From the NCBI RefSeq assembly GCF_014644555.1, contig NZ_BMKX01000001.1, forward strand, positions 558,001 through 622,000: 64,000 nt of DNA. Direction: 5' to 3'. The translations under genes were made by a program, and so were the position numbers. Positions 33,062-52,545 of the stretch are shown one piece after another. The number at the start of each line of letters is the position of its first letter. Position 1 is the stretch's first letter. The notes under the pieces were generated by a model, which worked only from the letters and a program-made list of their open reading frames with translations, ran no database searches and had not been told where the DNA came from. This DNA is from Glutamicibacter ardleyensis (GTDB taxonomy: Bacteria; Actinomycetota; Actinomycetes; Actinomycetales; Micrococcaceae).

Positions 33062-34483
33062 CTAGGCCCCGGAGGTAGTTGACTCGGGAGTCCCTAGCAT
33101 TTGATGGACCCGGTGCGCGGTCCTGTGCATGAAATCCTGGTCGTGGGTGGAGAGAAGCACCGATCCCCCGCGATTCAGCACCGAGTCGATGACCTCTTGC
33201 AAGCATGCCAACCCGGCAGAGTCCAAGGCTTCGGTTGGTTCGTCCAAGAGGAGAACCTGCGGTTCTCGGACTAGGACGGTCGCTAGTGCTACGAGCCTGC
33301 GTGCCGAAGCCGGCAACTCATAGGGATGGGTCTCGGCGAAAGCTTCCAATCCGAGTTGCGAGAGGACTTCCGGAACACGCAATCGTTGTTTGCCCTTCTT
33401 TGGAAGGCCAAAAGATACCTCGCGCAATACGGTGCGTTCGAATAGCTGGTCGGAGGAATTCTGCAGAAGCATGCCGGTAGAAGCTGATACCGCCAGGGTG
33501 CCGGCGGTTGGCCGCAGCAGCCCTGCGGCTGTTTTGAGCACCGTGGTTTTACCCGATCCATTCGCACCCGCCAGCCCGACGCATTCACCGGCCCGTACCT
33601 GCAGATCCAGCCCGTCGACTACTGGACGCTCGGCCCCCGGATAACCCAGTTGGACCCCGCTGAAGTCCAAGAGAATCTCCGCTTCGCCAGGAGTGGCACG
33701 CCACTGAGTTGGCTCGGATACGGGTTGCTGCACATGTTCTTCTGCTGAGATCTTGCTTAGTTGCCCATCCACTAGTTTCCCTAGTGCATCTGTGTTGTCG
33801 GCCCACGGTTTGGCAGTCCGGCTCAAGACCACCATTGCGGTGCCGTCAGCGCGAAGCCGAGAAATCATTTCGGTCACTGCATCCGTCGCCCAGGAGTCCA
33901 AACCCGCCAGCGGCTCATCCAAGACCATGACGGAAGGCTCCGAAATAGCCAAGGCTGCCAAGGCGACGAGTCGTTCCTGACCGCCAGAAAGCTTGGCAGG
34001 ATCGCGTTCAAGCAAATGGTCTAGGCCCAGCTGCTTGGAAAGCCCAGCGATGCGCTGGCGCATCTCTTCTCGTGGCACGCCCTCGTTTTCGAGCGAGAAT
34101 ACGAGTTCCTCGGCAACCCTTTCACGGATCCGTGAAAGATAGTGCCCAGCTTCCTGAGGAAGCAAACCGACGTGCTTGGCCCACCCTGCCACATTAATGC
34201 GCTGGCTTTCCAGATCCGTATATTCAATCCGTTGCCCAGCTAGGTTCATTGTTCCCAGGCATTGGTCCGCGCCCTGCCGCGGCAAGATTCCGGCGAGCAC
34301 CTCGCCCAGCGTGGACTTGCCTGAACCGGATTCCCCGACAACCACAGTCAATGAGCCCGGAGCCAAATTCATCTCAATGCGCTGCAAGGAATCAAGCTCG
34401 GCACCGGAATAGCGAAAGCGCTTTATGTTGAGGTCGAGCAGCACAGAATTCTCCGTGCGTGAGTTCTCTTGATTCTCTATCAT
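33062..34483 (-). CDS. ECF transporter ATPase, two fused domains (EcfA-A')
   Basis: This 473-aa protein carries two ABC ATPase domains. The first has Walker A GESGSGKST, LSGGQERL and VMVLDEPLAGLD. The second has GANGSGKTT, a weakened signature (ELPASARRL in place of LSGGQ) and VLLLDEPTEALD. Fused A components are common in actinobacterial ECF systems. The ATG at 34483 overlaps the EcfT stop (ATGA) and has GGGGGAG upstream. It energises uptake together with the T and S components encoded before it. Confidence 0.88.
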   Translation of the reverse strand: MIENQENSRTENSVLLDLNIKRFRYSGAELDSLQRIEMNLAPGSLTVVVGESGSGKSTLGEVLAGILPRQGADQCLGTMNLAGQRIEYTDLESQRINVAGWAKHVGLLPQEAGHYLSRIRERVAEELVFSLENEGVPREEMRQRIAGLSKQLGLDHLLERDPAKLSGGQERLVALAALAISEPSVMVLDEPLAGLDSWATDAVTEMISRLRADGTAMVVLSRTAKPWADNTDALGKLVDGQLSKISAEEHVQQPVSEPTQWRATPGEAEILLDFSGVQLGYPGAERPVVDGLDLQVRAGECVGLAGANGSGKTTVLKTAAGLLRPTAGTLAVSASTGMLLQNSSDQLFERTVLREVSFGLPKKGKQRLRVPEVLSQLGLEAFAETHPYELPASARRLVALATVLVREPQVLLLDEPTEALDSAGLACLQEVIDSVLNRGGSVLLSTHDQDFMHRTAHRVHQMLGTPESTTSGA

Positions 34484-35235
34484 CGACTCCCCCAGAAGGG
34501 TGCCAATATTGCTATCGGGCCCAGTACGGCGAAGAGCAAGGCAACCCAACGGACACGTTGCTGGGTGACAGAATCTGCGACGGTACGCAATCTGGCGTGG
34601 GATCCGGCGGCGGGAAAACCGCGGGCTGACAGGTGAGCCGACCTGTCATGGGCATCCTGCAAGGAGGCGAGCACCAGCGGAACCGCTCGCAACCGCACCC
34701 GTTGGAACCAACCCGAAAGACCACGTCCAGTTCCCGCTTGGCGTAGTGCCTGCGCTTGGCCGATAGTGCGCTGTTTCTCGGCCATATGAGGCAGGAGGAA
34801 CAGCGTGGCGGCCAGCAGGTATCCCACCTGAGGCGGTGCCGGAGACAAGTCTATGGCCGCCACCAGCTGATGCTTGTCGATCAGCAAGGTGCAGAGCAGT
34901 CCTGCCACCACCAGCACCGCGGTGCGCAGACCCAAAACCATGGCAGTTTCCAATCCACTTACAGTCACCCGGAACGGCCCAGCTGCAGCTATGAGCCCGG
35001 ACGCATCCTGAGAGACGAGCCCATGGATCAGAAGCAAAGAAGCGAACGTAGGAATCAGGATGGAAGCGCTCAGGACAGCTAACCGTCGCAGATGCCCTGT
35101 CCAACCGGCAACCAGCGCACAGGCAGTGAGGACCGCGCAACTCACCCACCAGAGGTTGGCGGCGGTGGCCATCGTGACGACGGCCGCTGCCAGTGCCAGT
35201 ACGGTAAATGGATGCAGGTTGATGGACTTGGGCAT
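34480..35235 (-). CDS. ECF transporter transmembrane component EcfT
   Basis: This 251-aa membrane protein of the CbiQ/EcfT family has about five helices. Its two coupling motifs are near AQALRQAGTG and SAHLSARGFPA, the latter the classical A-R-G motif that contacts the ATPase. It starts 11 bp after the S component and overlaps the ATPase by 4 nt, so the three genes form one unit. Confidence 0.87.
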   Translation of the reverse strand: MPKSINLHPFTVLALAAAVVTMATAANLWWVSCAVLTACALVAGWTGHLRRLAVLSASILIPTFASLLLIHGLVSQDASGLIAAAGPFRVTVSGLETAMVLGLRTAVLVVAGLLCTLLIDKHQLVAAIDLSPAPPQVGYLLAATLFLLPHMAEKQRTIGQAQALRQAGTGRGLSGWFQRVRLRAVPLVLASLQDAHDRSAHLSARGFPAAGSHARLRTVADSVTQQRVRWVALLFAVLGPIAILAPFWGSR

Positions 35236-35246
35236 AGCGGATGGAC

Positions 35247-36053
35247 TTACTTGGTTCCGCGCTGGCCCAGCACCCGGTAACGGCGGATGAAGTCAAAGCT
35301 TCCGCTCAAACGCTTGGGCAGAGCGTAAATCAGCAAAGCAGCAATGAGGAAGACAATGGCCTTATCTCCCGGGTCTGAGATCAAGGCCTGCTTAGTCACG
35401 GCCGAAAGCAGCGAATCGCCCATGGAGCGGAAAGCCGCTACCACTGCCCCAGTTCCAACGCCCGAAGTTCCGCCGAAAACGAAGGCCGCCACCGGAGCTG
35501 AAACCACACCGACCAGAACACCTGCCACCACACCGGCCATAGGGGCAAGATACGGGCGGCGCAGCGCACCAAAACGAGCAGCGGTTCCCGCGAGGAAACC
35601 GACCAATGCAGCACCAGCCGCGAAGGGCAAGACCGTCGGGGCGAACAGCGACCAGATCAGGGTGCTGAGCACACCTGTGGCTGCACCGGCGCGGCGGCCC
35701 GCCAAGAACCCGACTAGCACCGTGCCAATGGAATCAAGGTAGAGCGGAACCATCACGGAACCGACGAATTGCCCCAAAATAATGTTCAGGGCCAGTGCTA
35801 CTGGGATCAGCGTGAGAGTGGATACCGGCAAGTCCGGAAGCACCGCGACCAGAAGCATGACGGCGGCGGCCAGGTAGGCGGCGAAGGTAACCAGTGCGAC
35901 GCCCTGTCCCAGTCCTTCAGCTATACCCGTGGGTTGGGTAATGACTAGGACTAGGTAAGTGCCGATCAGGAGCAGGGTGCCAGCGCTGGCCAAGAGCCTG
36001 CGGCGCAGAACTTGGGAGCTGGTTTCTTCGGGCAAAAGCAGATTCGGTGACAT
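35247..36053 (-). CDS. ECF transporter substrate-specific (S) component
   Basis: This is a 268-aa, very hydrophobic protein with six or more helices. It contains the segment PLYLDSIGTVLVGFLAG, recognisable in S components of the ECF class, and a Gly/Ala-rich core. The N- and C-termini are cytosolic and basic. The ligand cannot be read from sequence, but a nucleoside hydrolase gene lies directly upstream on the same strand. A nucleoside, nucleobase or ribose-derived compound is therefore my first guess. Confidence 0.8.
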   Translation of the reverse strand: MSPNLLLPEETSSQVLRRRLLASAGTLLLIGTYLVLVITQPTGIAEGLGQGVALVTFAAYLAAAVMLLVAVLPDLPVSTLTLIPVALALNIILGQFVGSVMVPLYLDSIGTVLVGFLAGRRAGAATGVLSTLIWSLFAPTVLPFAAGAALVGFLAGTAARFGALRRPYLAPMAGVVAGVLVGVVSAPVAAFVFGGTSGVGTGAVVAAFRSMGDSLLSAVTKQALISDPGDKAIVFLIAALLIYALPKRLSGSFDFIRRYRVLGQRGTK

Positions 36054-36153
36054 AGAAAGGCATTCCTCGGTACGAGTATGGCTGTGCGCCCATGTACTAC
36101 TGGGTGCGTGCGAGTGCGGGGCCTAATGTCACCTCGGCCCGGTAGATAATTCT

Positions 36154-36168
36154 AGCTCAGCATGAGCT
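36154..36168 (-). promoter_or_regulatory. Small hairpin between nucleoside hydrolase and ECF genes
   Basis: AGCTCA-GCA-TGAGCT forms a short stem 5 bp after the hydrolase stop. AGAATTAT follows on the minus strand. It could be a weak attenuator or an mRNA processing site between the two parts of the cluster. Confidence 0.3.
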
Positions 36169-36172
36169 GAGT

Positions 36173-37231
36173 TCAGAAGTCCGTGTTCAATTTCCGCGCC
36201 AAGCTCCCCAATCGTGTAACGAGTTCGGCAAAGCCAGCTTCCGGATTGTTGCCGGTGACTACGTGCGCATTTGCTGGCTTGCCCCACAGTCCTCGGAAGT
36301 CGGCCACGGTGGTTCCGAAAAGAAGCTCGGATTCAGTTTCCACATCAATCGTGGCGGGTCGACTTTCATAGTCGAGGGTTCCGGCGGCTACGCCTGCGGC
36401 GAAGTAGTCATGGACGTGGGCAATGTAGCCCTGGTCGTAATGCCGGTGGAACTCGAAGTAGAAGCGCAGAGCATCTGATAGATAACGTACCAGCGGATTG
36501 GATGCGCTGCTCAGAGTTCCTTCTGGATCGGTGGCCAGAACCAGTTCAGGTTCCGAGCACCCGGCTTCCTCCGCCAAGTGGGTCAAGAATTCCGGCCGCA
36601 TTTCGAAGCGCTCGGTGGTGTCTAACGAACAGATAATGGGGAGCTTGTCTTCCGCTAGTCCTTGTTCAGCTGCGGCTGTATAGGCAGCGAAGACTTCCTT
36701 GGCAGCGTGCGGATCAACGTGGGTGTTCCACTCGGCCGTAGGTGTTGTATTGCCTTGGTAGTAGAACGCACCACCCATGATGACTACTTTCCGCAAAAGC
36801 CATGGCAACTTTGGTTCGCGTCGTAAAGCTAGCGCGAAGTTGGTGAGCGGTGCGGTCAGCAAAACCGTTAGCTCTCCAGGGTTAGTTCGTGCGGCTTCGA
36901 CCCAGTAGTCCACAGCGCCTCCGGGGTGTGCGGGAGAGGTTTCGGGGGTTGGTAGAGTCGCATACCCCATTCCTTGCGGTCCATGAGTTTCGGGCGTCGT
37001 GACTAGCGGGATCTGCAAAGGAGCGTGTGCACCGATCATCACGTGGACATCCGACTTCCCGCATAGATCGAGAAGGGCTCGGTTATTCGATGCGACCTGC
37101 TCGACTCCGACATTTCCAGGAGTGCTGACAATCGCTTCTATCTGCACATGGTCGCAGGAACATAAGTAAGAGACTGCAAGGGAATCATCAATACCGGTGT
37201 CGCAATCCAACAGAAGATGTACGCTGCTCAT
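36173..37231 (-). CDS. Inosine/uridine-preferring nucleoside hydrolase
   Basis: This 352-aa protein starts SSVHLLLDCDTGIDDSLAV. The Asp cluster DCDTGIDD binds the catalytic calcium in nucleoside hydrolases, and VIMGGAFYYQGNTTPTAEWN (about residues 145-165) is the second substrate-binding region. It hydrolyses the N-glycosidic bond of a ribonucleoside to base and ribose. It lies 119 bp upstream of the ECF S component on the same strand, consistent with salvage of an imported nucleoside or an imported precursor. Confidence 0.88.
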   Translation of the reverse strand: MSSVHLLLDCDTGIDDSLAVSYLCSCDHVQIEAIVSTPGNVGVEQVASNNRALLDLCGKSDVHVMIGAHAPLQIPLVTTPETHGPQGMGYATLPTPETSPAHPGGAVDYWVEAARTNPGELTVLLTAPLTNFALALRREPKLPWLLRKVVIMGGAFYYQGNTTPTAEWNTHVDPHAAKEVFAAYTAAAEQGLAEDKLPIICSLDTTERFEMRPEFLTHLAEEAGCSEPELVLATDPEGTLSSASNPLVRYLSDALRFYFEFHRHYDQGYIAHVHDYFAAGVAAGTLDYESRPATIDVETESELLFGTTVADFRGLWGKPANAHVVTGNNPEAGFAELVTRLGSLARKLNTDF

Positions 37232-37904
37232 TAGCCTGCCTCCAAGATATGTCCCAATAAGTTTGGCCTCAACGACTACGCCTCCAATGCAGCCCGATTC
37301 TTGGCGTCGTTAGATGCGCATTTCTACCTCGGACAACCACTCGTCAAGGTATTTTTTTCAATTCAAACTCACGAACGAATTCAGGTTGCCCTCCACACGC
37401 TACACATTAATTCGACAGTCCTCGTCTCTAACTCTACTTATGTCACTAGCTATCGTATTTTTCATGTAGATAACCCACCTGAAAAAGATGCTCGCCCAAA
37501 CTCGGGTACGCAGAAACAAAAGTTTAGAGCGACCCTTCGGGATGTGGCCCCACCGCTCCAATCTGTTATCGACAAACTAAACCTTCTGTTCATCGAAACA
37601 TCTTGTAATGTGCGCCAGAGATTCTACAGCCAATTACCAAATTCAATATTTCTCCACGTGCATCGGCCCGAGGAACACATGAGGGCACGAAGTTCCAGGC
37701 TGAGCTTCATTGCCTCCTTCAGCATGACAAAAACGCTAACCTCAGGAGCAGAGCAGCCATGCGATAGGGGCGCAGACGAGATCGATTATCCAATATCATC
37801 CGCAGTGCAAATCTAAGACAAATTTGGCTACGTTGAATGTCGAGTCGGCAAGCTCACCATTGGTGATATCAGAACAGTCGGTGCCGGAAGGTAGGATAAA
37901 TTCT
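37232..37904. other. Left margin of the AT-rich defence island; no supported gene
   Basis: In this 670-bp stretch the base composition falls away from the high-GC backbone. An open frame of about 170 codons is present, but it shows no domain, no ribosome-binding site and no plausible protein composition, so I do not call it. A short repeat shared with 40,036 and 49,857 lies at 37284. Confidence 0.5.
37275..37300 (+). repeat. Dispersed repeat A (left island end)
   Basis: The core CCAATGCAG at 37284-37292 lies within CGCCTCCAATGCAGCCCGA. A closely similar sequence is at 40026-40054 and a weaker one at 49845-49872, all in the same orientation. Confidence 0.5.
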
Positions 37905-39041
37905 ATGACAAATCCTACGGTGATCGACCTGTTCGCAGGCTGCGGCGGGATGACCATTGGGTTCGCGCAAGAGGGTTTCAATCCGATCTTTGCCGTTGAA
38001 TGGGATAAATACGCGGCCGCTACGTACGCCGCAAATTTCGGTGAAGAGCACGTACGAGCTGGCGACATCGCGGACGTCAAGGATGAAGAAATCCCCGAGG
38101 CTGATCTGATAATCGGCGGGCCCCCATGCCAGGGCTTTTCCAACCTTGGGCTTAAACGCCTCGAAGACCCCCGTAATCAACTGTGGCGTGAATATATGAG
38201 ATTTATTCTGAAAGCAAGGCCTCAGGTATTTGTGATTGAGAACGTCGACCGCTTTAGCAAGTCACCCGAGTTCGAAATGCTACGCGCGGAAGTTGAAAAC
38301 GGTATCCTGCAGAACTATGAAATCTCCTACAACGTACTTAACGCTGCAGATTACGGAGTTGCGCAACGTCGTCGTCGAACTATCATAATAGGTTCACGCG
38401 TCGGAAAAATCGATTTACCTGCACCGACTCATGCCCGCGAACCCGCGCCAGGTTCCGGCCTCCTTCCATGGAGAACCGTAAGAAACCGGATCGAAGGCCT
38501 CCCTCTAACTCCAGCATCGAGCGAATTACCTAAATCAACCACAGAGTTCTTTGGCGAATCGATGCCGGGAACCTTCAGAAAACTAGATATTCATTTCCGC
38601 CGTGACCCGCGCCCACTATCCTTAGAGCGCTACGCCCATGTACCGCCGGGGGGTGGGCGTTTCAATGTGCCGACCGATCTTCTCCCAAGATGCTGGCGCG
38701 AAAAAGCTACCGGCACAACAGATGTAATGGGGAGAATGCGCTGGGATTTTCCGTCGCACACTATCCGTACCGAATTTTTCAAGCCTGAGAAGGGCTCGTA
38801 CCTTCATCCCCAATGGGTGCAAGGACAATATCTCGGAGAAGACGCACGATGGGTTAGAGGCGACCCGGAACAGACCGTGAATCGAGTGGTGACGCACTAC
38901 GAAGCTAGCTTGCTACAGGACTTCCCTGAGGACTATCAATGGGTGGGTACGAAGGTCGCAATCGCGAGACAAATTGGTAATGCCGTACCTTCTGGGCTAG
39001 CGCGAGCCATCGCTCGCCACGTGAGACCCTTCATCAGCTAA
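37905..39041 (+). CDS. C5-cytosine DNA methyltransferase
   Basis: This 378-aa m5C methyltransferase has motif I DLFAGCGGM, motif IV GGPPCQGFSN with catalytic Cys75, motif VI VIENVD (Glu112), motif VIII AQRRRR (from Gln154) and motif X IGNAVPSGLA. The variable target-recognition region lies between about 190 and 320. The ATG at 37905 has AGGATAAATTCT upstream. Alternative upstream TTG starts are weak. It converges on the NaeI-like nuclease with an 8-bp overlap of coding ends. If the nuclease is a true NaeI relative the methylated site may be GCCGGC-like. Confidence 0.93.
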   Translation: MTNPTVIDLFAGCGGMTIGFAQEGFNPIFAVEWDKYAAATYAANFGEEHVRAGDIADVKDEEIPEADLIIGGPPCQGFSNLGLKRLEDPRNQLWREYMRFILKARPQVFVIENVDRFSKSPEFEMLRAEVENGILQNYEISYNVLNAADYGVAQRRRRTIIIGSRVGKIDLPAPTHAREPAPGSGLLPWRTVRNRIEGLPLTPASSELPKSTTEFFGESMPGTFRKLDIHFRRDPRPLSLERYAHVPPGGGRFNVPTDLLPRCWREKATGTTDVMGRMRWDFPSHTIRTEFFKPEKGSYLHPQWVQGQYLGEDARWVRGDPEQTVNRVVTHYEASLLQDFPEDYQWVGTKVAIARQIGNAVPSGLARAIARHVRPFIS

Positions 39042-39978
39042 GGCGTTCTTCACCCCTACCTGACTCACGCGACATTTGCCAAGCAACTGCAAAGTCATCC
39101 CCAAGTGTCTCTGGAGTAAGCGCTATCCACGCTTCATTCGAGATATCGAAGCCGTGCTTTGCAGCCATTTCGCGTTGCAAAGGCCAGGTCCCCATTAATA
39201 ACACAAGTCCATGTTCAACGTACACATCAGGTTTAGCTTGGCGAGCGCGACGAGCGACGTCTTTTGCGTTGGCGCCGACCGTCTCAATAGAAATTCGTGG
39301 GATAACAACGTCAGGCAAAAATCCGAATAATGCTGTAAGTCGGCGCTTGATTCCATTTCGTAAATTAAAAACGATCGCCAGCTCATCTGGTTTTAAAAGT
39401 TTTAAAGGATTGGGTGGAAGCGGCGTCCAAGGAACGACAGGAAGTGCGTAGGTCCGAATCGCTTCTGCCACAATCGTACGCTTTTTGTCTTGATTTCCGC
39501 CTTCGTTCAGCCACAAACGGTGCGTACGCATTAAGAATGCCTGATAACGATCGTTCGACGAATCGACTTGGATTAGAAGGCATATTTGGCATTGCCCTTC
39601 GCGTGGAATCATCCAGTTTTTCCGCACGGTTCCTTTGAGTTCAACCGGGATACCGAGGATGTTTGTGTCGAGTGGGGGTAATTTCTTGAGATTAAGAGCG
39701 TCCAATACTCGATACTGCAGCTTCGTTCCCAGCGACGCTCGTTCGTCGGAATCTACGTCAGGGCTATCCAGATCAAATCGCCAAGTTCGGGCACCATCGA
39801 GTACATATTCAATGGCGTCGTTGACCGCACCAGTGAGCCGCTCTTCGATGGGTTGAGAAAGTAACCACTCATAAACGGTTTGGAAATCAGCATCTGCCAG
39901 TGGATCCTCAACAATATGAGGAGTGCTGTTACCATCGCTTACGCATTCATTCCCAAATGGGAACAGTATTTTCTTCAT
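39034..39978 (-). CDS. NaeI-family type II restriction endonuclease
   Basis: This protein of about 314 aa matches NaeI in length and plan. The segment GTKLQYRVLDAL is followed by LDTNILGIPVELKGTVRKNW. The nuclease triad looks like Asp104-(8)-Glu113-x-Lys115, the same spacing as D86...D95-x-K97 recalled for NaeI. The C-terminal half (about 190-314) would be the second DNA-binding, CAP-like domain. NaeI cuts GCC/GGC and needs a second site as effector. The start is ATG 39978 (or TTG 39990). Both lack a strong ribosome-binding site. It pairs with the convergent methyltransferase. Confidence 0.85.
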   Translation of the reverse strand: MKKILFPFGNECVSDGNSTPHIVEDPLADADFQTVYEWLLSQPIEERLTGAVNDAIEYVLDGARTWRFDLDSPDVDSDERASLGTKLQYRVLDALNLKKLPPLDTNILGIPVELKGTVRKNWMIPREGQCQICLLIQVDSSNDRYQAFLMRTHRLWLNEGGNQDKKRTIVAEAIRTYALPVVPWTPLPPNPLKLLKPDELAIVFNLRNGIKRRLTALFGFLPDVVIPRISIETVGANAKDVARRARQAKPDVYVEHGLVLLMGTWPLQREMAAKHGFDISNEAWIALTPETLGDDFAVAWQMSRESGRGEERLS

Positions 39979-40385
39979 TGCCACAGTCAACCATTATGCC
40001 GTGTGAATAACTTTGTTACGGCTGATGACGCGCCACCAATGCGGCCCGAGTTCTGCAGAATACAATTCACCGAATCAAGCCTCCTAATACATTTATGATT
40101 CCGAAGTTACAAGAAAACAATCAGAATAAAAACGTTCTATCGAACAAAAGCACCGCACCTATCTAGAAATACAGAAAATATGATGCAGATACTACAAAAA
40201 AGATAAGTTAACTGCAACATTAACGAAGAATGTTTGACTCCCTTTGACGACCCAGAATAAAAGTGGTTGTTGTCCGTGGGACTCCCCAAAGGTCGCGCTC
40301 AAAGGCGAGCACGGCCAACAAACCTCTTGATCCCAACACAAATTGTCAAGGTAATGATGCTCTGATCAATACAACTAATTCACTC
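39979..40385. other. AT-rich gap between the nuclease and Z1 genes
   Basis: This 407-bp stretch holds the promoter of the NaeI-like gene, the end of the Z1 operon, and dispersed repeat B. No open frame is convincing. Confidence 0.5.
40026..40054 (+). repeat. Dispersed repeat B (between the two modules)
   Basis: It contains CGCCACCAATGCGGCCCGAG, alignable with repeat A over about 26 bp with few differences. An upstream AATAACTTTG also resembles AATAAGTTTG near repeat A. Confidence 0.5.
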
Positions 40386-43300
40386 CTATATTCCCACTGT
40401 CGGAGATAGTGGGTTCTCCTCCGACCGAACACTAAATCCTGCTTTTCCTTTCGGAGCCGCGTCATGCGGGATCGCCCACGAAAATAGTGTTGCTATGTCC
40501 TCAGGGGCTACCGCTCCCAGCGCGAGATCCTCTGGGTTAGAAAAAGCCCTTTTTCCGTCCCACTGATCAGCGGATAAAGTGATTATTATGGCTCCAGTAG
40601 TGCGCGAAGCACTATCACTGTCAGCTTTCTGACGAGTGAAACTGGATTCGAGAGGCATTCGTGTCCACCGAGAGGAACCTGAAAAATCACCACGGTCACG
40701 CCGCTGCCTTTCAACAATCGGAAACTGGCTTGCCCCCGTTTCAGGCAGATCAATCATCCTACTAACATGATCTCTAGTAGGGATTGGGAGAACGACCTTG
40801 AAGTTTGTGATGGTTCCTCTGTTAATCGCATCTCTGACAAATTCAATATCAGCATCTGCAAGCCCGGGCTTACCCCAGACAAATGAGGACAATGCATCAA
40901 CAATTACCTGTGCAGGAATCAATCCAGTGCGCGCCCTGTAACTTGACTGTTTATTTGTTGAAGTTTCATAACAAAAGACTTCCTCCTGCGTAAGAAGTCC
41001 AAGAACTGGTGCGATGGCAACTAGATTTTCACGGTTTTTAGATTCCTTCGGATTTCTAGAAGTCATGTAGAAGAAATCCTTGAATCGATCGCCTTTCGCA
41101 TACTGCACGATCTTAGCGTTATACATTCGGTTACGCGCTGTAGGTCGTAGCCAAGGAAGACTCTGAGAGACCAGGGGTGGAATGTCAATCGGTCGAACTT
41201 GTGGTTGGCCATGTTCATCCAGTTCGGCAAACTGTTCAAGTTGATCTCGAAATTCCTCTTCATCCGAAATCATCGATTCAAAAGCCTCATAAAGATCGTA
41301 GGTCTTCGAATTACTTGCTGACGCTACTACATTACGACCAATATAGAGACGTACTAGATCACGATAACCTGGTCGATATCCGAACCAACGGCCCATCTGC
41401 ATAAGCGTGTCGGCTGCCAAAGCCTTCCGCGAATACCAGGTGATTGTTAGACCCTCGATGGTGTAGCCACGCGAAAGCTTTGCTCCACCTACAAGCAGCT
41501 TCCAGACAGATCCCTTCTGGAAATCCGCGCCAGCCTGAGTATATTCGCTCTCTTTATCTCCATTGACTACAACGATTGGACCGCTTCCAGATTCAATACG
41601 CTTAATAACCTCCGGAAGGTAGACAGCGACATCGTCAAAGGATGCGGGGACTGCGTGAAGTCTTGGATCCGGGTACTCAGAATCGGTCCTGAGCTGCAGC
41701 TCCTGCATAACCGGACTGAAATCTCTTGACCACAATTCTTGAAGTCGGTCATACCCATCGAATCCTAAATAGTCAGATTTCCTCCATAAGGCATGAATTT
41801 CACGCGCTAACGAGTCGTGCTCCACCTGTTTGACGGACTCATGAAACAACATCGTATGATGCTTAAAATCTCCGAGACTGCCGCGTGCTTCTCTCCATAG
41901 CTTAATTCCACCTGTGAGCACGAAGGAATCAACAGCGTGCTGCATCTCATTTCGTCGTAATTCTTCAGAGATCCAATTCGAATTAATGTCTCGAACGTAC
42001 GCGGCCTGGTTGCTAAGCCTAGGAGTTTTAATTTCATCGGGCTCAAAAATTGTATTTCGATCGTGAAAAGAGCTCCCACCCATATATGCTGCTGGTGGTT
42101 TAAGACTAAAGATGAAGTCTTTAGGGTAAATATCATCGGCATCTAGTGGATCGACAAAAACATTAGCAAACGGTGTTGCGGTATAGCCAACGTACTGGGC
42201 ACGGGGCAGTATCCCTAGAAGATCTGACAGTAGCCTGTTGATTGCTGTTCGTTCACGTGCTTGCTTCTTTTCCTCCTCCTCTTCTTCCTTAGTTAACTTC
42301 ACTGGTGGCTTCCTTGTATTGATGCCGGCCTGATCCGCTTCGTCATCAATAATTAGGGCGGGGTAATCTTGGGTGTTTCCTCTAATTTGTTTGAGGTCTT
42401 TGATGAGCTTTCGTAGTACTGGGCCATTTTTCTTAATAACAACGAGACGTACCGGTGTATCCCACAAATTATCCGGATGGAAAATTTTTTGTTTCGGATT
42501 CCGGATATGAGATTTGTAGTCTAGTGTCGAAAGACCTGCTTTAAGGGATTTATAGTCATCAGTACTCTTGGTGAGACGGATAATATGGGGTACCCCAGGT
42601 ACACTTTCCGGGTCGTAACCAAATTTCACGAATTTACCGTCAGCTAACCAATCCGAATCATCGTTTGCAATATAGTCGATGTTCTCACGAGCCAAAGCTT
42701 CATCGGTAAGGTCTATCCCGCCAACAATATTTTCGAAGCCAACGAGTTCTTTATCAAGTCGGCGTTGAGTCTGGCTTCTCAGCAGCTCCAATGTGCCTGT
42801 CAAAACTATTATGAGTCTGTAGCCAGCATCGATGGCCTTAGCAATGGTGCCGGTGAAGTTCGCCGTCTTTCCGCTCTGAACGTGACCTACTACCAGCCCC
42901 TTGGTCTGATAAGTTTCGTCCCAACTTGGATCTGCAAATCTGCTGACTATTTCAGTTGTAGATTCATCCAGCGCCGCAATCGCATCACCATCAAAACCAC
43001 GTCGTTTGAGAACTCCCCGATACACATCCCAGTAATGGCTCCGCGAGCGACGGTCTGTCGAATACCACGGCCATCGGCCATCACGCGGAGCAGACACGAT
43101 AACCCCACCATTTATTATGGGGTAATAGGAGTTTATGGCCCCCGCGTCGCGTTCATCAAAACCGAGTTTCCTGAGAATATAAGCACGACGTTCTCGCCCT
43201 TTTGGTTTGGCTACTGCTGTAGAGGCGCCATCCAGCCAAAGAGCATCAGTTGTCTGATCCCATCGAGAGAGAGCCAACCGAAACTCAACTTGAATAGGAT

Positions 43301-43475
43301 CATTCGGGTCACCTTCAATAGTCAGAAGTCTAATGAGCTCTTCACCGGATAGGGCTACTTCCCCGTCTTCTTCTAATGTGAAATTAACACGGTTGAGAAG
43401 ATACTTTGGAGCTTTCTCAGCAATCATCGCAATCGCGCTCGTCACGGCATCCACAGTTATGTCAGAGCTTGGCAT
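40386..43475 (-). CDS. Z1-domain P-loop ATPase (MzaC-like, defence)
   Basis: This 1029-aa protein has Walker A GHVQSGKT at residues 197-204, a Walker B-like IIDDEAD near 373, and the Z1 hallmark GGAKLSRGYTIEGLTI followed by LMQMGRWFGYRPGY near 660-700. Z1 proteins accompany MutL/MORC-type ATPases in restriction-linked operons. In the CglI restriction system a DEAD-Z1 protein acts as the DNA motor. GGAGG lies 5 nt before the ATG at 43475. It overlaps the PD-(D/E)XK gene by 14 nt and is last in the four-gene operon. Confidence 0.9.
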   Translation of the reverse strand: MPSSDITVDAVTSAIAMIAEKAPKYLLNRVNFTLEEDGEVALSGEELIRLLTIEGDPNDPIQVEFRLALSRWDQTTDALWLDGASTAVAKPKGRERRAYILRKLGFDERDAGAINSYYPIINGGVIVSAPRDGRWPWYSTDRRSRSHYWDVYRGVLKRRGFDGDAIAALDESTTEIVSRFADPSWDETYQTKGLVVGHVQSGKTANFTGTIAKAIDAGYRLIIVLTGTLELLRSQTQRRLDKELVGFENIVGGIDLTDEALARENIDYIANDDSDWLADGKFVKFGYDPESVPGVPHIIRLTKSTDDYKSLKAGLSTLDYKSHIRNPKQKIFHPDNLWDTPVRLVVIKKNGPVLRKLIKDLKQIRGNTQDYPALIIDDEADQAGINTRKPPVKLTKEEEEEEKKQARERTAINRLLSDLLGILPRAQYVGYTATPFANVFVDPLDADDIYPKDFIFSLKPPAAYMGGSSFHDRNTIFEPDEIKTPRLSNQAAYVRDINSNWISEELRRNEMQHAVDSFVLTGGIKLWREARGSLGDFKHHTMLFHESVKQVEHDSLAREIHALWRKSDYLGFDGYDRLQELWSRDFSPVMQELQLRTDSEYPDPRLHAVPASFDDVAVYLPEVIKRIESGSGPIVVVNGDKESEYTQAGADFQKGSVWKLLVGGAKLSRGYTIEGLTITWYSRKALAADTLMQMGRWFGYRPGYRDLVRLYIGRNVVASASNSKTYDLYEAFESMISDEEEFRDQLEQFAELDEHGQPQVRPIDIPPLVSQSLPWLRPTARNRMYNAKIVQYAKGDRFKDFFYMTSRNPKESKNRENLVAIAPVLGLLTQEEVFCYETSTNKQSSYRARTGLIPAQVIVDALSSFVWGKPGLADADIEFVRDAINRGTITNFKVVLPIPTRDHVSRMIDLPETGASQFPIVERQRRDRGDFSGSSRWTRMPLESSFTRQKADSDSASRTTGAIIITLSADQWDGKRAFSNPEDLALGAVAPEDIATLFSWAIPHDAAPKGKAGFSVRSEENPLSPTVGI

Positions 43476-44466
43476 TTAAACCTCCAAAATGGGCGTCTGT
43501 ATAGTTTAGGAATTCGGTAAGTGGATCAGGGGCCCGCTGCGCCATCAAATGAGAGATATCGGTTCTGTACGAAATATCAGAAAGATACTCGTAATGACAG
43601 ATTCCCTTACTTAAGGTCGAGTTACGCAGTGCCGGAAACTGCTCATTCACTAAGAAAAATGCTGGTACCGACCGCAATACATATCTCGCTTTGTACGAAT
43701 CGATGTCCTTGTCCCACCAACCAAGACAGTTCAAATAGTCATTGAATTGAGTTGTATGTGGCCCGAGATATTTTCGGATAACGTTTATTAACGTAGTCAG
43801 CCCGAACCCGTTCCGCGCTGATCCCGCCGCTGTGATTTGGATGGAAAGAAACCATAACTCCCGATTAGACGAAGCTTCTAGTTGATTAGCCGAACCGATA
43901 CGATGAATGCGATTTTCACCTGTAGTTGTTTTGACTTCAAGATCGAACGAACCGAAGGCAAAATCATGCTGTTCGGCTTGCGGACCGATCCACGACGACA
44001 ACGCAGATATCGGGTCGACGCTGCAAAGGTAGGCTAAAAGCAGAAGTTCTCCAATGAGCCCGGTTTGCATTTCAGCACTCAAGATTTTCCGGTTCTGAAG
44101 CAAAAGTCTGTGCTCATCAATACTTTGTGCGATAGCAATAGATAAGTGGTTTCCCTTGTGCAATTCTTCTACGATTTGCGCAATGAATGAGTAGGCGGCA
44201 TAGTGCATCCCGTCTGCATACAGTGTAATTCGGTAAAAATTTACATCAGCGAGGTAATCAACCTTTATATTTTCAAAATATCCAACATCGGGTTCAGAAA
44301 AATCGTTAGGAACTAACAACTGAATACTCTGTGTCGACGGATCAACTCGAAGCTCACATCTCGGGTTATTGCTGAGTAGATGCACCACTGTATTCGTCGA
44401 GTTGAAATAGCGCTCTACAGTTTGGGGGTCCAATCTGGCATGTATATCCCGCGAATTACTAGTCAT
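43462..44466 (-). CDS. PD-(D/E)XK nuclease-motif protein of the Z1 operon
   Basis: This 334-aa protein has a GELLLL Glu (Glu140), then Asp168 in HDFAFGSFDLEVKTT and Glu177-x-Lys179. This is the layout of a PD-(D/E)XK nuclease core (DUF4420-like). Proteins of this type sit beside Z1 and MORC-like ATPases in Mza-type operons. The start overlaps the preceding gene by 4 nt (ATGA), and the Z1 gene overlaps its end. It is the probable DNA-cutting subunit or a structural relative of one. Activity is not proven. Confidence 0.82.
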   Translation of the reverse strand: MTSNSRDIHARLDPQTVERYFNSTNTVVHLLSNNPRCELRVDPSTQSIQLLVPNDFSEPDVGYFENIKVDYLADVNFYRITLYADGMHYAAYSFIAQIVEELHKGNHLSIAIAQSIDEHRLLLQNRKILSAEMQTGLIGELLLLAYLCSVDPISALSSWIGPQAEQHDFAFGSFDLEVKTTTGENRIHRIGSANQLEASSNRELWFLSIQITAAGSARNGFGLTTLINVIRKYLGPHTTQFNDYLNCLGWWDKDIDSYKARYVLRSVPAFFLVNEQFPALRNSTLSKGICHYEYLSDISYRTDISHLMAQRAPDPLTEFLNYTDAHFGGLNAKL

Positions 44467-46007
44467 TGCCTACCGTTATCTGTCGATGAGGATGGATCGA
44501 AGTCTTCTGCAATAGCTTCCATTAGAACCGCATTCATCAGTCGGTGCCTTTCTTCACGTTGCGGGCTCCAACGTTGCTCAACTTTAAAATCGGTCTCTAG
44601 TAGAAAGTACAGAAACACTTTTAGGAGCTGGGCATCTCCATTATTGAGCCTACGTTCTAAGCCGTAAAATCTACGAACCCATTCAACGCTGAGATCTATT
44701 CTTCGAGCCACACGATCCGCCCGAAAGAGCTCATTTGATGGCAAGGTTACTAATCGAAGTTCTATTGGATCGCAGTCATCAAAATATTGCAAACTTTCCA
44801 ACTGAGAAATTACTGAAGGGTTAATTCCACGAGACGGCTCTACGAGCCTTATTTCTTTTCGTTTAGTCCTTCTCGATTCTTTTTGTAGTCGTATTAAATC
44901 AACGAAATATGTATCTAAATATCGCGCGGATTGTTCGGGAGTATGCGACTTGGACATTGCACTCATGAAGTCCTCAGAATAGATTGGCGCAATCTTTTCC
45001 GAATTAAGAGAAATAAAATGTTCGTTGGAATCGTCTAGCTCAATTTTGATCCGGCCAAGTCCGAAGTCTTTCTTGGGGACGCGGAGTCCTGCCCAATTCT
45101 GCCCAACTGATAGCAGCCTTCCCCGGCGGTATAAAAAAACACCTTGACTTGATTCGCCAGGCTCACCATATAAATTAAACGACGAAGATCCAAGACGAGG
45201 CAAAAAAATATGCGCTTCAATTTTGCATGATGTGCCATCGGGTAAATCAACTATAAAATCTTGGGGGTAGCCATTGCGCTCAAGCGAATCTTCGAACGGA
45301 TCAATAGGGTCAACCAGCGTTGGCGGTAAAGTCTTACGACGGTCGACATCGTAAGTGTCAATATCTATGCAGACTTTTCTCTCCTGCAGGCGACGATGAA
45401 ATATTATCCCCAAATGTTCTCGAATAGCTCGTAGCTTCGAAGTCCGCCACTCGATTAAGTCACCTATTTCAGACGTATGAATGACGTCTAATAGGCCTCT
45501 CCATTCGACGAGTGTTCCGTGCACCAACTCTAGCCCTGGCACATCGTCGAGTTTTCGGCTGGCGTGTCCCTCTTCCAATACGTCTACGCTAAAATCACTA
45601 CTAACCGACTGATCCATTCGACGTCCTACAGATTGCCCCCATTCCTGACGGGAATAAACTGCGAATGAATCGGCCTGCGATAACGAGGCGACTTTCAGAC
45701 CAAGGCCAAAATACCCTAAATCCGCGGACTTATATTCTCTTTTAGCTCCAAAAGTCATTGCTTTCTTGAGCTCTACGGAGGACATCCCTTTTCCGTTGTC
45801 GATAATCTGAAGCGCTAGAATATTACTCCCACGCTGGACGAAACGCACCCGGACGTGAGTCGCATCTGCATCGATTGAGTTATCAACTAAGTCCGCTATG
45901 GCACTTTTGAGGTCATGGTGACGACCAATTGCAGCAATGGTAGACGGGTCCGGCAATACCGTCTCTCTTGTCCAAAGCTCTTGGCCGAATTCTTGGTTAG
46001 TAGGCAT
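44463..46007 (-). CDS. GHKL ATPase, MORC/MutL-like, of the Z1 operon
   Basis: This protein of about 514 aa opens with a Bergerat ATP fold: N-box ADLVDNSIDADAT (Asn43), G1 DNGKGM (Asp70), G2 GYFGLGLK (98-105). The residue that is Glu in the N-box of most GHKL ATPases is Asp39 here. Such ATPases clamp on DNA by ATP-driven dimerisation, as in MutL, MORC and topoisomerase II. I chose the ATG at 46007, which follows GAGGACTAGTTGG and lies 4 nt after the stop of the large ATPase gene. Confidence 0.87.
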   Translation of the reverse strand: MPTNQEFGQELWTRETVLPDPSTIAAIGRHHDLKSAIADLVDNSIDADATHVRVRFVQRGSNILALQIIDNGKGMSSVELKKAMTFGAKREYKSADLGYFGLGLKVASLSQADSFAVYSRQEWGQSVGRRMDQSVSSDFSVDVLEEGHASRKLDDVPGLELVHGTLVEWRGLLDVIHTSEIGDLIEWRTSKLRAIREHLGIIFHRRLQERKVCIDIDTYDVDRRKTLPPTLVDPIDPFEDSLERNGYPQDFIVDLPDGTSCKIEAHIFLPRLGSSSFNLYGEPGESSQGVFLYRRGRLLSVGQNWAGLRVPKKDFGLGRIKIELDDSNEHFISLNSEKIAPIYSEDFMSAMSKSHTPEQSARYLDTYFVDLIRLQKESRRTKRKEIRLVEPSRGINPSVISQLESLQYFDDCDPIELRLVTLPSNELFRADRVARRIDLSVEWVRRFYGLERRLNNGDAQLLKVFLYFLLETDFKVEQRWSPQREERHRLMNAVLMEAIAEDFDPSSSTDNGRQ

Positions 46008-46011
46008 CCAA

Positions 46012-49000
46012 CTAGTCCTCAAACCGAGTTTGCCCACCGAGTTTTTTAACGTTTTCAGCAATACTGACTGCTGCCTCCGTTGGAATACCGATTGACATGT
46101 CTACCTCGAAATTAATTCTGAGATCAAAAACTTCGGCTTGCGGATTATCCAAGTAGCTAAGAACTGCTCGTTCGATTAGCTTTAGTTGATCGCTCAAGTT
46201 TCGCGATGAGTCAAGCGGGATGAAACCGCTCGCATGAGTCTTTAGCGGTTCCACTTCAGGTTCTGGTTCCGGCTCAGCGTTGGTCGTGCCAGGCTTTGGC
46301 GACGAAGATGTCTTTGCCAGTCTTCGCATTTCTACTTCTACGTCTGCGGCCCTACGTGAGCTTCCAATATCAAGAAGCAATGCTGTTAAAAGTCTCCGAG
46401 TAGACAGCGCGTTGGAGAAATAAAAATTGGAGCCCTCACGAAATGTCTCATGTTCTTCGACATCCATATCGTCGGAATAACTATTCGAACGTACGGTCTT
46501 CAGGGTTGTACATGGCACACATTTAAAGCTTCGCCTGATTTTTGGCTCGATCCTATGGAGCACAGGGAATAGTGCGGCGATAGTCTCAACTTCTCCATCG
46601 TCATCTTTCTCATACTCAAAGACACTGAAAAATTCGATTCGAACTTCTTGAACCTTCCAATTTCGAATCAAAGCCTCTTTGAGTTCGTAGTCCTCAACAT
46701 AAATAACGGAACTCTTTGCCGTCTTTAATAAGTACTCGCATGTGTCCTTGTCTTGCGTCACTTTAATGAGGTTCGCAGGATATTTACGCTGTCCTCCGTT
46801 CGGCCCTTCGACTAGCAACTGTTCTGGTCGTTTGGCACCTCGCAACGCCAATAAGCCATAAAGCTCATGGACACGTGAGACAGGAAGTTTCTCTTCGGCT
46901 AGCGGAAGCACGAAGCTCCAGTTGATCTTGTCGATAGTTGTCGGCAGCTCTAGTTTTTCCGCGTGTGAAGGGCCAGGGTATGGCAAGTAGCCGATCGGAA
47001 TGCCATCAACGTCGCCAGAACAGTACCGTACATCTATGAAACCCAACCTGGTTTGCAGCACTCCGTAGTTTCGCACCCACCACATGTCAGGGCCTTCGAT
47101 TACTTTGGGGTCTTTATAAGCGCTACTGAACTCCACCTTCGACTTGAACATATCGTTAGAAAGAAGTCGCTGGGTCGTTTTTTCTCGAGTACGAATTGAT
47201 GCTTCGCGAAGTAAATGAAGGCCCTCTGTAGTTAAAGCGGGTTTAAAACGAAGAGAAAATTCGGAAACTGGAACCGGTGTTGACCTTGATTCTTCCGAAA
47301 TTCTTGCTGCTTCAGATTTCTTCCACACCTTGTAGGTTGGATCGTCAACCGTTGCCAATGGATCAGAGAGGGCGCTTCTAACATTCAAATTTCTTATTAG
47401 GGTTAGATCCTGTCGATGGAACTGAACATCAACGAGAAGGGACTCATCGCCAACGCTATCTCCCGCAATAAGGCCATTGGGTAACCACATATCAGCAGTT
47501 GGGCGCCAACGACCGTCTTTCGCTCGGACCCGCAATTTATCTACTTCGAGTTTCTCCCCGATCAGCGAAAGCATCTCTGGGACAGGTAACGCTCGCGAAA
47601 GTCGCCACAACGAAAGAGTCGCGCCCTCATCGTCATAATTCTTGGCAACTTGTCGTGCTATACGAGCGACTTTCCCTCTGTCGTCGAGGACATGAAAGCC
47701 TAACTTACGAAGAAGCGTGCTGACATCGCCATAGTGCAAGAATTCATAGTCGACGAGATTGGCTCCCTCATCGTGCGCGTCCATCGGTAGAAATGTCTGA
47801 GTAACGATGGGCTGACGAACGCTACCATCATGCATGCGTACAATCCGACTTCGACGCATGGCTGCCAGAAGATCTGGGTGGCGTTGTTCAATTTCAACGG
47901 CCAATCTAAGAGCATGTTCAAAGTCATCGAATTGGCCCCCATAAGTAACCTCTTCTAACCATTGCTCAATTGTGGCCCTACCTTTATTAGCAAGGCCCAA
48001 AAGCCGGCGAATAACGAGTCGTCGCTCTTTGGTGGCCACGGCAGACGGATGGAGCCAAGGACGTTCAGATCCTACCCAGCGTGACCACATTTCTTCTAAA
48101 TAATCCACATCTGAAAGATCCGGTGGGAAAATCAAATCGGAAATATTCCGGAGTTCACCTGACCTAGCAGGCAGACAGGGGACTACGGACAAAGCTATGA
48201 AGATAGGTTCATTGATTACGGTATCGGCCCACGAGATTACTTCGCGCCCACGTGCCGGCAGTAAGTCCAAATAGCTGGAAGGATCGGCTTCATCTTGGAA
48301 AGAAGCTAAGGCTCCTGCAACCATAGTTGGTAGAGCATTTTGAAGAATTTCTTTGTTATATAGCGTTTGAAGCATGCTATGTCGGTCTTCATTCATCTTG
48401 AACGCAGCATTAACTATTCCCCGAAGCGAGGTGGTGTGACTCGTTGGGAAATAATTCCAGAAGCTACCCCGTTGTCTCCGCGAATTCCCGGTAATTGGAA
48501 CCGCCCAAGTTACTTCGACGGTGTCGCGGGCAGCAATTGCGCCGGCCTCAACACTCGCCATTGCGCTGACCTTATGGTTATAGCGGAATATTCTCCAGTC
48601 TTCTGAAGCACCCTCGGATTCTAATGTGACGAAGGATCCTTCCCGTCGTGCAGTCCATACGACTAGGCTTCCTTCGATCATGTTTTCGAACTCGAGGGAA
48701 CCTATATTTTGCGAAAAAAGTAGGAATTCATGTGGAAAATTATTCATCGCGTCGCTGAGCCATTTTGCTTGTTGCGCTAATGGAAGTTTAACGACAGTAC
48801 TAGACCATTTCATTAGCTCGCGCAGAATATGATCATCTTTTGCTTCGTCAACAGGATCCACTGGAGTTGCTATCCGTAGCACAGGATAAGATGCCAACCC
48901 GGGATACAAAGGTTCAAGAAGCTGATTGCTATATTCGCGATCCCATTTTACAGAACCACTTTTGCTGAAAATCTGCGGAGAGTCAGAAATCTGAATTACC

Positions 49001-49353
49001 GATTTGAATCCCAATCCAAAACGCCCGATTTGATCATCGCGCTTCTCAGAGGAGTGCGAAAGCATCAAAGTTCGATACCCCGACTCAGTGAAGGCCGCCC
49101 CTTCATTGGCACAGTACAGCGCATCGTCAGTCAGAACAATTCTCACACGGCCATTGGGTTGGTCGATCGCGTCAGCGGCATTCTGAATAAGTTCATTTAG
49201 CTGTTTGCGGCCGTACCCACTCTGAGTAATCGCCTGTTCGATGTTGCTGTGTTCACGAACCAGATCTGGTCGGGCTTTATAAGCGTTCAACGCTTGCACA
49301 GTCTCATCCGCGACGAATTGATTCAGACTACTGTCTACGCCAGCCCATGACAT
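46012..49353 (-). CDS. Large sacsin-like GHKL ATPase, first gene of the Z1 operon
   Basis: This protein of about 1113 aa has an N-terminal Hsp90-like ATP fold resembling the sacsin N-terminal ATPase: N-box NELIQNAADAID (Glu54, Asn58), a G1 loop DDALYCANEGAAF and G2 GRFGLGFKS (110-118). The rest has no motif I recognise apart from an acidic Glu/Pro linker (EPEPEPEVEP) near residue 1022 and a C-terminal alpha/beta part. ATG 49353 has GGGAGGAG 12 nt upstream. A TTG at 49362 is better spaced. It probably corresponds to the large first component of Mza-type operons. It may sense phage DNA or proteins, an inference only. Confidence 0.82.
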   Translation of the reverse strand: MSWAGVDSSLNQFVADETVQALNAYKARPDLVREHSNIEQAITQSGYGRKQLNELIQNAADAIDQPNGRVRIVLTDDALYCANEGAAFTESGYRTLMLSHSSEKRDDQIGRFGLGFKSVIQISDSPQIFSKSGSVKWDREYSNQLLEPLYPGLASYPVLRIATPVDPVDEAKDDHILRELMKWSSTVVKLPLAQQAKWLSDAMNNFPHEFLLFSQNIGSLEFENMIEGSLVVWTARREGSFVTLESEGASEDWRIFRYNHKVSAMASVEAGAIAARDTVEVTWAVPITGNSRRQRGSFWNYFPTSHTTSLRGIVNAAFKMNEDRHSMLQTLYNKEILQNALPTMVAGALASFQDEADPSSYLDLLPARGREVISWADTVINEPIFIALSVVPCLPARSGELRNISDLIFPPDLSDVDYLEEMWSRWVGSERPWLHPSAVATKERRLVIRRLLGLANKGRATIEQWLEEVTYGGQFDDFEHALRLAVEIEQRHPDLLAAMRRSRIVRMHDGSVRQPIVTQTFLPMDAHDEGANLVDYEFLHYGDVSTLLRKLGFHVLDDRGKVARIARQVAKNYDDEGATLSLWRLSRALPVPEMLSLIGEKLEVDKLRVRAKDGRWRPTADMWLPNGLIAGDSVGDESLLVDVQFHRQDLTLIRNLNVRSALSDPLATVDDPTYKVWKKSEAARISEESRSTPVPVSEFSLRFKPALTTEGLHLLREASIRTREKTTQRLLSNDMFKSKVEFSSAYKDPKVIEGPDMWWVRNYGVLQTRLGFIDVRYCSGDVDGIPIGYLPYPGPSHAEKLELPTTIDKINWSFVLPLAEEKLPVSRVHELYGLLALRGAKRPEQLLVEGPNGGQRKYPANLIKVTQDKDTCEYLLKTAKSSVIYVEDYELKEALIRNWKVQEVRIEFFSVFEYEKDDDGEVETIAALFPVLHRIEPKIRRSFKCVPCTTLKTVRSNSYSDDMDVEEHETFREGSNFYFSNALSTRRLLTALLLDIGSSRRAADVEVEMRRLAKTSSSPKPGTTNAEPEPEPEVEPLKTHASGFIPLDSSRNLSDQLKLIERAVLSYLDNPQAEVFDLRINFEVDMSIGIPTEAAVSIAENVKKLGGQTRFED

Positions 49354-49892
49354 ACCTATCAAGTTCTCCTCCCAAAAAGAGAAACATTCCGACAAATCCT
49401 AAAACGGATACACCAAGTATTGATTTAATGAAGTGCAGCAACCTACGTGATGTAAACGCACACAACTAAACGCATGCTCTGAATGCAACAGTACACCGGT
49501 AAAGGTTATGTACTGTAGATCCTTGAGTCATGAACGTTCGTAATATAAGGCGTTACTTTCGCCGAAAAATTAGGTCTTTTTGCTATAAAAAAATCTCTCT
49601 TTTGGAAGATATGACGTCTAGTTCGGTGTCATACACAAGCATCGGTACCTAATTCATGCATTTCTGACGAACGAATGAAGGCATTGAACGCAATCATGTC
49701 CAGCGTTTTCACTCAAATTTCCCGAATACTTAGGTAATCGGAAAAGTTCTTCTGGACGGAAACTCCTTCACAGCTTCATTACTGCAATACCTCGGCCGAT
49801 ACAATAGGACTTGCTCGTTTCAACTTAATGAGATCGTGATGACTCTTAAGCTGCCACCAATGCAGTGCGATCAGCTCTATGAAAGTATGGCG
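49354..49892. other. AT-rich region upstream of the defence operon
   Basis: About 540 bp without a credible gene. It holds the operon promoter region, then unrelated sequence and dispersed repeat C (core at 49857-49865). Confidence 0.5.
49845..49872 (+). repeat. Dispersed repeat C (right island end)
   Basis: It contains TGCCACCAATGCAGTGCGAT, the same orientation as repeats A and B but a weaker match after the core CCAATGCAG. Confidence 0.4.
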
Positions 49893-50216: not shown

Positions 50217-50295
50217 ACGACATTCCGCCGATGAGCTCGGTGAACTTGCGCAAGAACGCGTCGCTGCGGCTGGGCACGCTGTTTTGCCACGTCAT
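50203..50295 (-). CDS. Possible 30-residue ORF or gene tail at the island junction
   Basis: A 30-codon frame from ATG 50295 encodes a sequence ending RKFTELIGGMSFNLR, with balanced, protein-like composition. It lies 28 bp after the SRPBCC stop. It may be a tiny gene or the tail of a truncated gene. No family is recognised and the ribosome-binding site is weak. Confidence 0.3.
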   Translation of the reverse strand: MTWQNSVPSRSDAFLRKFTELIGGMSFNLR

Positions 50296-50323
50296 TGACG
50301 AGCCACTCAGGGCAAAAGGCACC

Positions 50324-50770
50324 TTACTCGGAGGCCTCGGGGAACTGCCCGGCCAGCCGTTCCAGGGTGCGTTCCATATTGGGCCCGGTGCTCCGGGTGA
50401 AGCCCATCAGCCGCAGCAGCCATTGGTGCCGCACCCGGCTCGCGTCCCAGGTTTCGCTGACCAGCGTCCCGGCCCCGACAGCTTCCAACTCGTAGCGCCA
50501 CCGATGCCCGCTGAAGTGCCGCCAGGCGATCTGCCGGTCTTGCTCGAACTCCACCACGGTATTGCTGATCCGGTACGGGACACCCAAGCGCATCTGCATG
50601 CCGAACTCGCTGCCCAGGCTGAGCTTGCTTCCCTGCGCGTTCGAGGCCCGCAGCGTTCCGGAGCCGTCGATGACCGGGTGCATGGCCGGATCGGTGAGCA
50701 GTTCAAAGATCTCTGAAGGCGCGGCGGCCACGAGGCGGCGGCGGGTTTGCAGATACGGGGATTCACTCAT
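50324..50770 (-). CDS. SRPBCC (START-like) family protein
   Basis: This 148-aa protein has the helix-grip fold pattern of the polyketide cyclase/dehydrase group: RRRLVAAAPSEIFELLTDPAMHPVID at the start, WRYELEAVGAGTLVSETWD in the middle and a long C-terminal helix. These proteins bind hydrophobic ligands in a central cavity. It is divergent from the PhoD-like gene by 107 bp. The ligand is unknown. Confidence 0.82.
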   Translation of the reverse strand: MSESPYLQTRRRLVAAAPSEIFELLTDPAMHPVIDGSGTLRASNAQGSKLSLGSEFGMQMRLGVPYRISNTVVEFEQDRQIAWRHFSGHRWRYELEAVGAGTLVSETWDASRVRHQWLLRLMGFTRSTGPNMERTLERLAGQFPEASE

Positions 50771-50877
50771 CAGCCCATCCTAGGCATCATCTGCTCCCCT
50801 GCCCGGCAGCCGGGCCTATCCCCCACGAAGTTGTTGTGCCATTCTTGGTTCACCTGCACCCTCAGGAAGGAAAATCG

Positions 50878-52545
50878 ATGAGCCCGCGAAACGATCAGGA
50901 CCTTGTCCTTGGCCCGATGCTCCGCCACGTGGATGCCAGCTCAGCCAGTATCTGGGTGGAGACAGCTCGGTCTGGCACCGTCGAGGTCCGCTGCGGTGAA
51001 GAAACCTGGCGTGCGCCGACATTTGGTGCCCACGGCCACCACTATGCGTTGGTTGAGGTGACGGGGCTGGAGGTTGGAAGCGTTTATCCCTACAGCGTAC
51101 ATCTAGATGGGGAACCGGTCTGGCCGCGCGATGATGGCTTCCCCGAATCATTCATCGCCACTATCGACCCGGCCAAGAAGCCACGGCTGGCCTTCGGGTC
51201 CTGCCGCACCAGCATTCCGCACGACGCGGCGGGCAACCGCAAGCACGGTGTTGACGCGATGCGCGCCTACGCCCTGTCCATGGCGAGCCCAGAACACGGA
51301 CCGTGGCCGGATCTGATGTTCTTCCTCGGCGATCAGGTTTATGCGGACTCCACCAGTGAGCAGATGCGCGAGTTCATCCGTAGCCGGCGCGATATCAGGG
51401 ACGAACCCGGGGCGGAGCTGAAGGACTTTGAGGAATACGCCCACCTGTACCGGTTGGCTTGGTCGGACCCGGCCAACCGTTGGCTTCTTTCCACCCTGCC
51501 CAGCGCGATGATCTTCGATGACCATGATATCCGCGACGATTGGAACTCCTCGCTGAGTTGGAAGCAGGATATGGAGCAGAGAAGCTGGTGGCACCAACGC
51601 ATTGTTGCGGGCCTCGGCTCATATTGGATCTATCAGCACTTAGGCAATCTCTCCCCCGAGGGGCGGGCTGCAGATCCACTCTGGCAACGCATCAAGGCGC
51701 ACACCGGCCCCGAAGAATTGGATATCACCGCCGATTTGGACCGGTTCGCCGAGCGCGTCGATGCCGCACCGGAAGAATACAGCTTCAGCTACTGCCGCGA
51801 CTGGGATACGGTGCGGCTGATCGTGGTGGACTCCCGTGCCGCACGCAGCCTCGACCCCGAAGAGCGTGCCCTGCTCGACCCACCGGAAAATGCGTGGCTC
51901 GACGAACATATGCAAGGAGGATTCCGCCACCTGCTCGTCGCTACCTCACTGCCCTTCCTGCTGCCCATGGGACTGCATCACGTGGAAGCGTGGAACGAGG
52001 TCTACTCCTCCGGGCAACGCGGCCCGGCCCGGGCGTGGCTCGGGGAACGGCTGCGCCGGGCCGTGGATCTTGAGCATTGGGCGGCATTCCAGCAAAGCTT
52101 CCAGAACGTCGCCCGGTGGGCCACCGAGGTCGCCGACGGCCAGCGCGGACCGGCCCCGCAGACCGTCACCTTCCTCTCCGGGGACGTGCATTTCTCCTAC
52201 GTCTCCGAGGTCGAACGCGAGACCGGAAGCAGGATCCTGCAAGCCGTGTGTTCGCCCATCCGCAACCCGCTGCCCCGGTTCATGCGCTACTTTGCCGCAG
52301 CCCTGGCCTTGGGTCCGGCCGTCCCGTTCGGGGCGTGGATGGCGCGCAGGGCACATGTGCCGGACCCGCCCTTTCGCTGGAACGGCATCAAGGGTCCCTG
52401 GTTCGACAACAATTTGGCCATCCTCGAGGACACCGAAGACGGGCTGGTGATCAGCTGGGTCACCGGGGTGGTTGACCACCGAGACCATCTGCACCCGAGG
52501 CTGGAAACCGTCGAAGTGGCAGTGCTCGAGCCGCGCGAGGGTTGA
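50878..52545 (+). CDS. PhoD-like metallophosphatase
   Basis: This 555-aa protein of the alkaline phosphatase D family has an N-terminal Ig-like domain. The metallophosphatase part contains FGSCRTS, FFLGDQVYAD, MIFDDHDIRDDW and LSGDVHFSY, which carry the metal-binding Asp/His residues. No signal peptide is seen at the chosen start, so it may be cytosolic, unlike classical secreted PhoD. AAGGAAAATCG precedes the ATG at 50878. An upstream in-frame start at 50836 lacks a clear site. It would hydrolyse phosphodiesters or monoesters. Confidence 0.88.
   Translation: MSPRNDQDLVLGPMLRHVDASSASIWVETARSGTVEVRCGEETWRAPTFGAHGHHYALVEVTGLEVGSVYPYSVHLDGEPVWPRDDGFPESFIATIDPAKKPRLAFGSCRTSIPHDAAGNRKHGVDAMRAYALSMASPEHGPWPDLMFFLGDQVYADSTSEQMREFIRSRRDIRDEPGAELKDFEEYAHLYRLAWSDPANRWLLSTLPSAMIFDDHDIRDDWNSSLSWKQDMEQRSWWHQRIVAGLGSYWIYQHLGNLSPEGRAADPLWQRIKAHTGPEELDITADLDRFAERVDAAPEEYSFSYCRDWDTVRLIVVDSRAARSLDPEERALLDPPENAWLDEHMQGGFRHLLVATSLPFLLPMGLHHVEAWNEVYSSGQRGPARAWLGERLRRAVDLEHWAAFQQSFQNVARWATEVADGQRGPAPQTVTFLSGDVHFSYVSEVERETGSRILQAVCSPIRNPLPRFMRYFAAALALGPAVPFGAWMARRAHVPDPPFRWNGIKGPWFDNNLAILEDTEDGLVISWVTGVVDHRDHLHPRLETVEVAVLEPREG

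Follow-up and report, generated by a model that had tools for sequence, protein, structure and literature searches.

The 64,000-nucleotide stretch of Glutamicibacter ardleyensis DNA analyzed here (the window; contig NZ_BMKX01000001.1, positions 558,001 to 622,000) carries a restriction island whose DNA cutter is swappable. A 16S comparison, with Pseudarthrobacter and Arthrobacter as the best plasmid-borne matches (86–87% over 66% of the query), points to Micrococcaceae as the probable family. The island pairs a C5 cytosine DNA methyltransferase with a NaeI-family endonuclease encoded on the opposite strand, next to an operon that includes two different GHKL ATPases and a PD-(D/E)XK protein of the DUF4420 family (Table 1). 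This gene content, put forward in an original prediction made from the sequence alone, was confirmed by profile searches. The interpretation offered with it stood in part; membership of MZA systems was rejected (see below).

Boundaries and exchangeable content of the island

The island boundaries are provided by genome G489 of the same genus, which lacks segment 37203–50273 at the matching site. The island flanks are contiguous there (locus L156), aligning at 86% for window positions 33070–37202 and 91% for 50274–52541. Between them G489 has 6.2 kb of different sequence encoding, among further open reading frames (ORFs), a NUDIX protein, a PLD-SF2 helicase with DUF3427 and a PLD protein. Since different genes lie between the same flanks, the island occupies a site of exchangeable content. 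No direct or inverted repeats of at least 11 bp were found between 1 kb of one island end and 1.1 kb of the other. A phage-borne island was considered and rejected, as the patterns of the sacsin-type protein gave no match in viral contigs (one query). The MORC-type ATPase gave three partial matches among 50,697 phage records, all unannotated fecal phage, the best with 31% identity over 53% coverage (E-value 2e-22).

Table 1. Genes of the island, with window coordinates and profile or structure matches (E-values).
Gene product	Coordinates	Strand	Matches
C5 cytosine DNA methyltransferase	37905..39041	+	PF00145 1.9e-64
NaeI-family (type IIE-like) endonuclease	39034..39990	-	PF09126 5e-31; 1ev7 1e-7
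Further island gene	40386..43475	-	
DUF4420 PD-(D/E)XK nuclease	43462..44466	-	PF14390 1.9e-34
MORC/MutL-type GHKL ATPase (MzaB-like)	44463..46061	-	HATPase_c_3 1.4e-23
Sacsin-type GHKL protein (TmtA-like), 1127 aa	46012..49395	-	SACS 1.5e-8; P_loop_sacsin 9.2e-22

The endonuclease and its methylase

The endonuclease reading frame is open and its residues 46–280 align to positions 11–244 of the 288 in the PF09126 profile. A nine-member family profile that includes it spans residues 9–314 of the 317 in NaeI (1ev7), and the family sequence thus covers both the endonuclease and effector domains. NaeI residues E70, D86, D95 and K97, which we take to be catalytic, correspond to Q, D, E and K in the window protein (E70Q and D95E, with D86 and K97 kept). 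NaeI itself and 12/12 other aligned homologues have E, D, D and K, so that two of the four catalytic positions are changed, among these proteins in the window alone. Cutting nevertheless appears possible from the sequence, since D86 and K97 remain and a glutamate at the D95 position still yields a normal PD-(D/E)XK motif. The NaeI type IIE restriction-modification system shares with the window a NaeI-family endonuclease and a C5 methylase; the window differs from it by its divergence (27% identity over 143 aligned residues), the two altered active-site residues and the linked ATPases.

The methylase ORF is open from 37824; the ATG at 37905 is preceded by GGAAGGTAGGA, and motifs FAGCGG, PPCQ, ENV, QRRRR and GNAV are present. 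Its closest relatives seen adjoin NaeI (L123, 59%; L021, 52%) or NgoMIV (L069, 53%). Identity is 46–47% to the methylases of p2MP, G421 and G441, where neither NaeI nor NgoMIV was seen. A second methylase clade, ~26% identical, also accompanies NaeI and NgoMIV (L095, L089, L023, L122, L062). This company suggests that GCCGGC may be the methylase target; avoidance of GCCGGC in its own genome, sought as a sign of specificity, was not found. CTCGAG is strongly depleted there (30 seen, 81 expected; 400 kb of C1, L168–L187) and more mildly in G489 (89 seen, 141 expected).

The ATPase operon and known systems

The sacsin-type GHKL gene is the first of the operon and likely starts at ATG 49353. Its product matches PADLOC TmtA (2.3e-54) and carries motifs ELIQNAADA, NEG and GRFGLGFK. 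The MORC/MutL-type ATPase, with a likely start at ATG 46007, matches MORC2, MORC3 and MutL structures and has motifs DLVDNSIDA, DNGKGM and FGLGLK. In the DUF4420 protein, the four residues of E140-D168-E177-x-K179 are invariant in 43/43 aligned proteins. Fusions of a sacsin-type GHKL protein to an SF2 helicase are found in L069 (1914–8883), L070 (7297–12003) and L071 (2470–7254), the one of L069 adjoining NgoMIV and a methylase.

Descent from a true MZA system by loss of AIPR and gain of NaeI, a view already disfavoured, is very improbable. Within NCBIfam the three core proteins do match MzaB, MzaC and MzaD best, but their scores (102.9, 286.2 and 71.3 bits) fall below the equivalog cut-offs (850, 1500 and 420 bits, respectively). 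An AIPR gene (MzaE), whose absence had been predicted, was found neither in the own genome (0/1) nor in the stretches of p2MP, G421 and G441. The window also departs from the B-C-D-E gene order of MZA displayed by AIPR loci L145–L151. AIPR, gene order, scores and the tree led us to reject MZA membership.

Several described systems come closest to the restriction island. The GHKL ATPase/SFII helicase system, for which DNA looping was proposed, shares with it an E-D-ExK nuclease and a cytosine methylase, often with Vsr; its helicase C-terminal motif is DThhQXuRhFG (DTLMQMGRWFG in the window). The window adds the sacsin-type GHKL protein and the NaeI-family enzyme. NaeI does not occur in the available text of that paper, although type II endonucleases are named among the abbreviations of a figure. 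NaeI itself is reported to loop DNA (PMC4081073). Miller 2022 describes, in the part available, a system with the identical three core genes (DUF4420 being spelled DUF4220); in the account of its Type I, which has three additional genes, AIPR does not figure. In a Corynebacterium diphtheriae BH8 island, an EcoRII-like enzyme replaces NaeI and three genes are unclassified in the section available (Puigbo et al. 2017, PMC5379612). CglI and NgoAVII are reported to differ by a PLD-B3 nuclease, and the three-gene systems of those papers have no GHKL protein (PMC4267653, PMC5737866).

Survey of branch loci

A methylase lies within the examined flanks of 52 of the 73 branch loci (16 loci are shorter than 20 kb). 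Only 20 neighbour genes were put to Pfam, three of them already labelled, and 7 of the 17 others matched a nuclease family; counts of non-NaeI endonuclease families are therefore lower bounds. NaeI accompanied DUF4420 loss in raw counts (7/34 versus 1/35, p 0.028), a comparison that leaves four loci unclassed (L119, L129, L132, L140) and counts L100, with a 39-residue DUF4420 match, among those without. This association is not claimed because the tree offers too few independent contrasts, in a test whose label was broader (NaeI or any other cutter identified) and whose DUF4420 classes were those before correction. L081, L086, L112 and L128 do contain DUF4420 and were reclassified manually; its apparent presence by tblastn in many loci is read as the effect of one query ORF that also contains GHKL sequence.

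Significance

Operons that differ almost solely by their endonuclease gene are a natural experiment that directly addresses a possible action of the ATPases on the endonuclease. Such action could also account for the puzzling two-site requirement of NaeI- and NgoMIV-type enzymes. A kinship of prokaryotic MORC proteins with the chromatin MORCs of eukaryotes has been proposed; what they do in bacteria is so far, in the literature available to us, a prediction.
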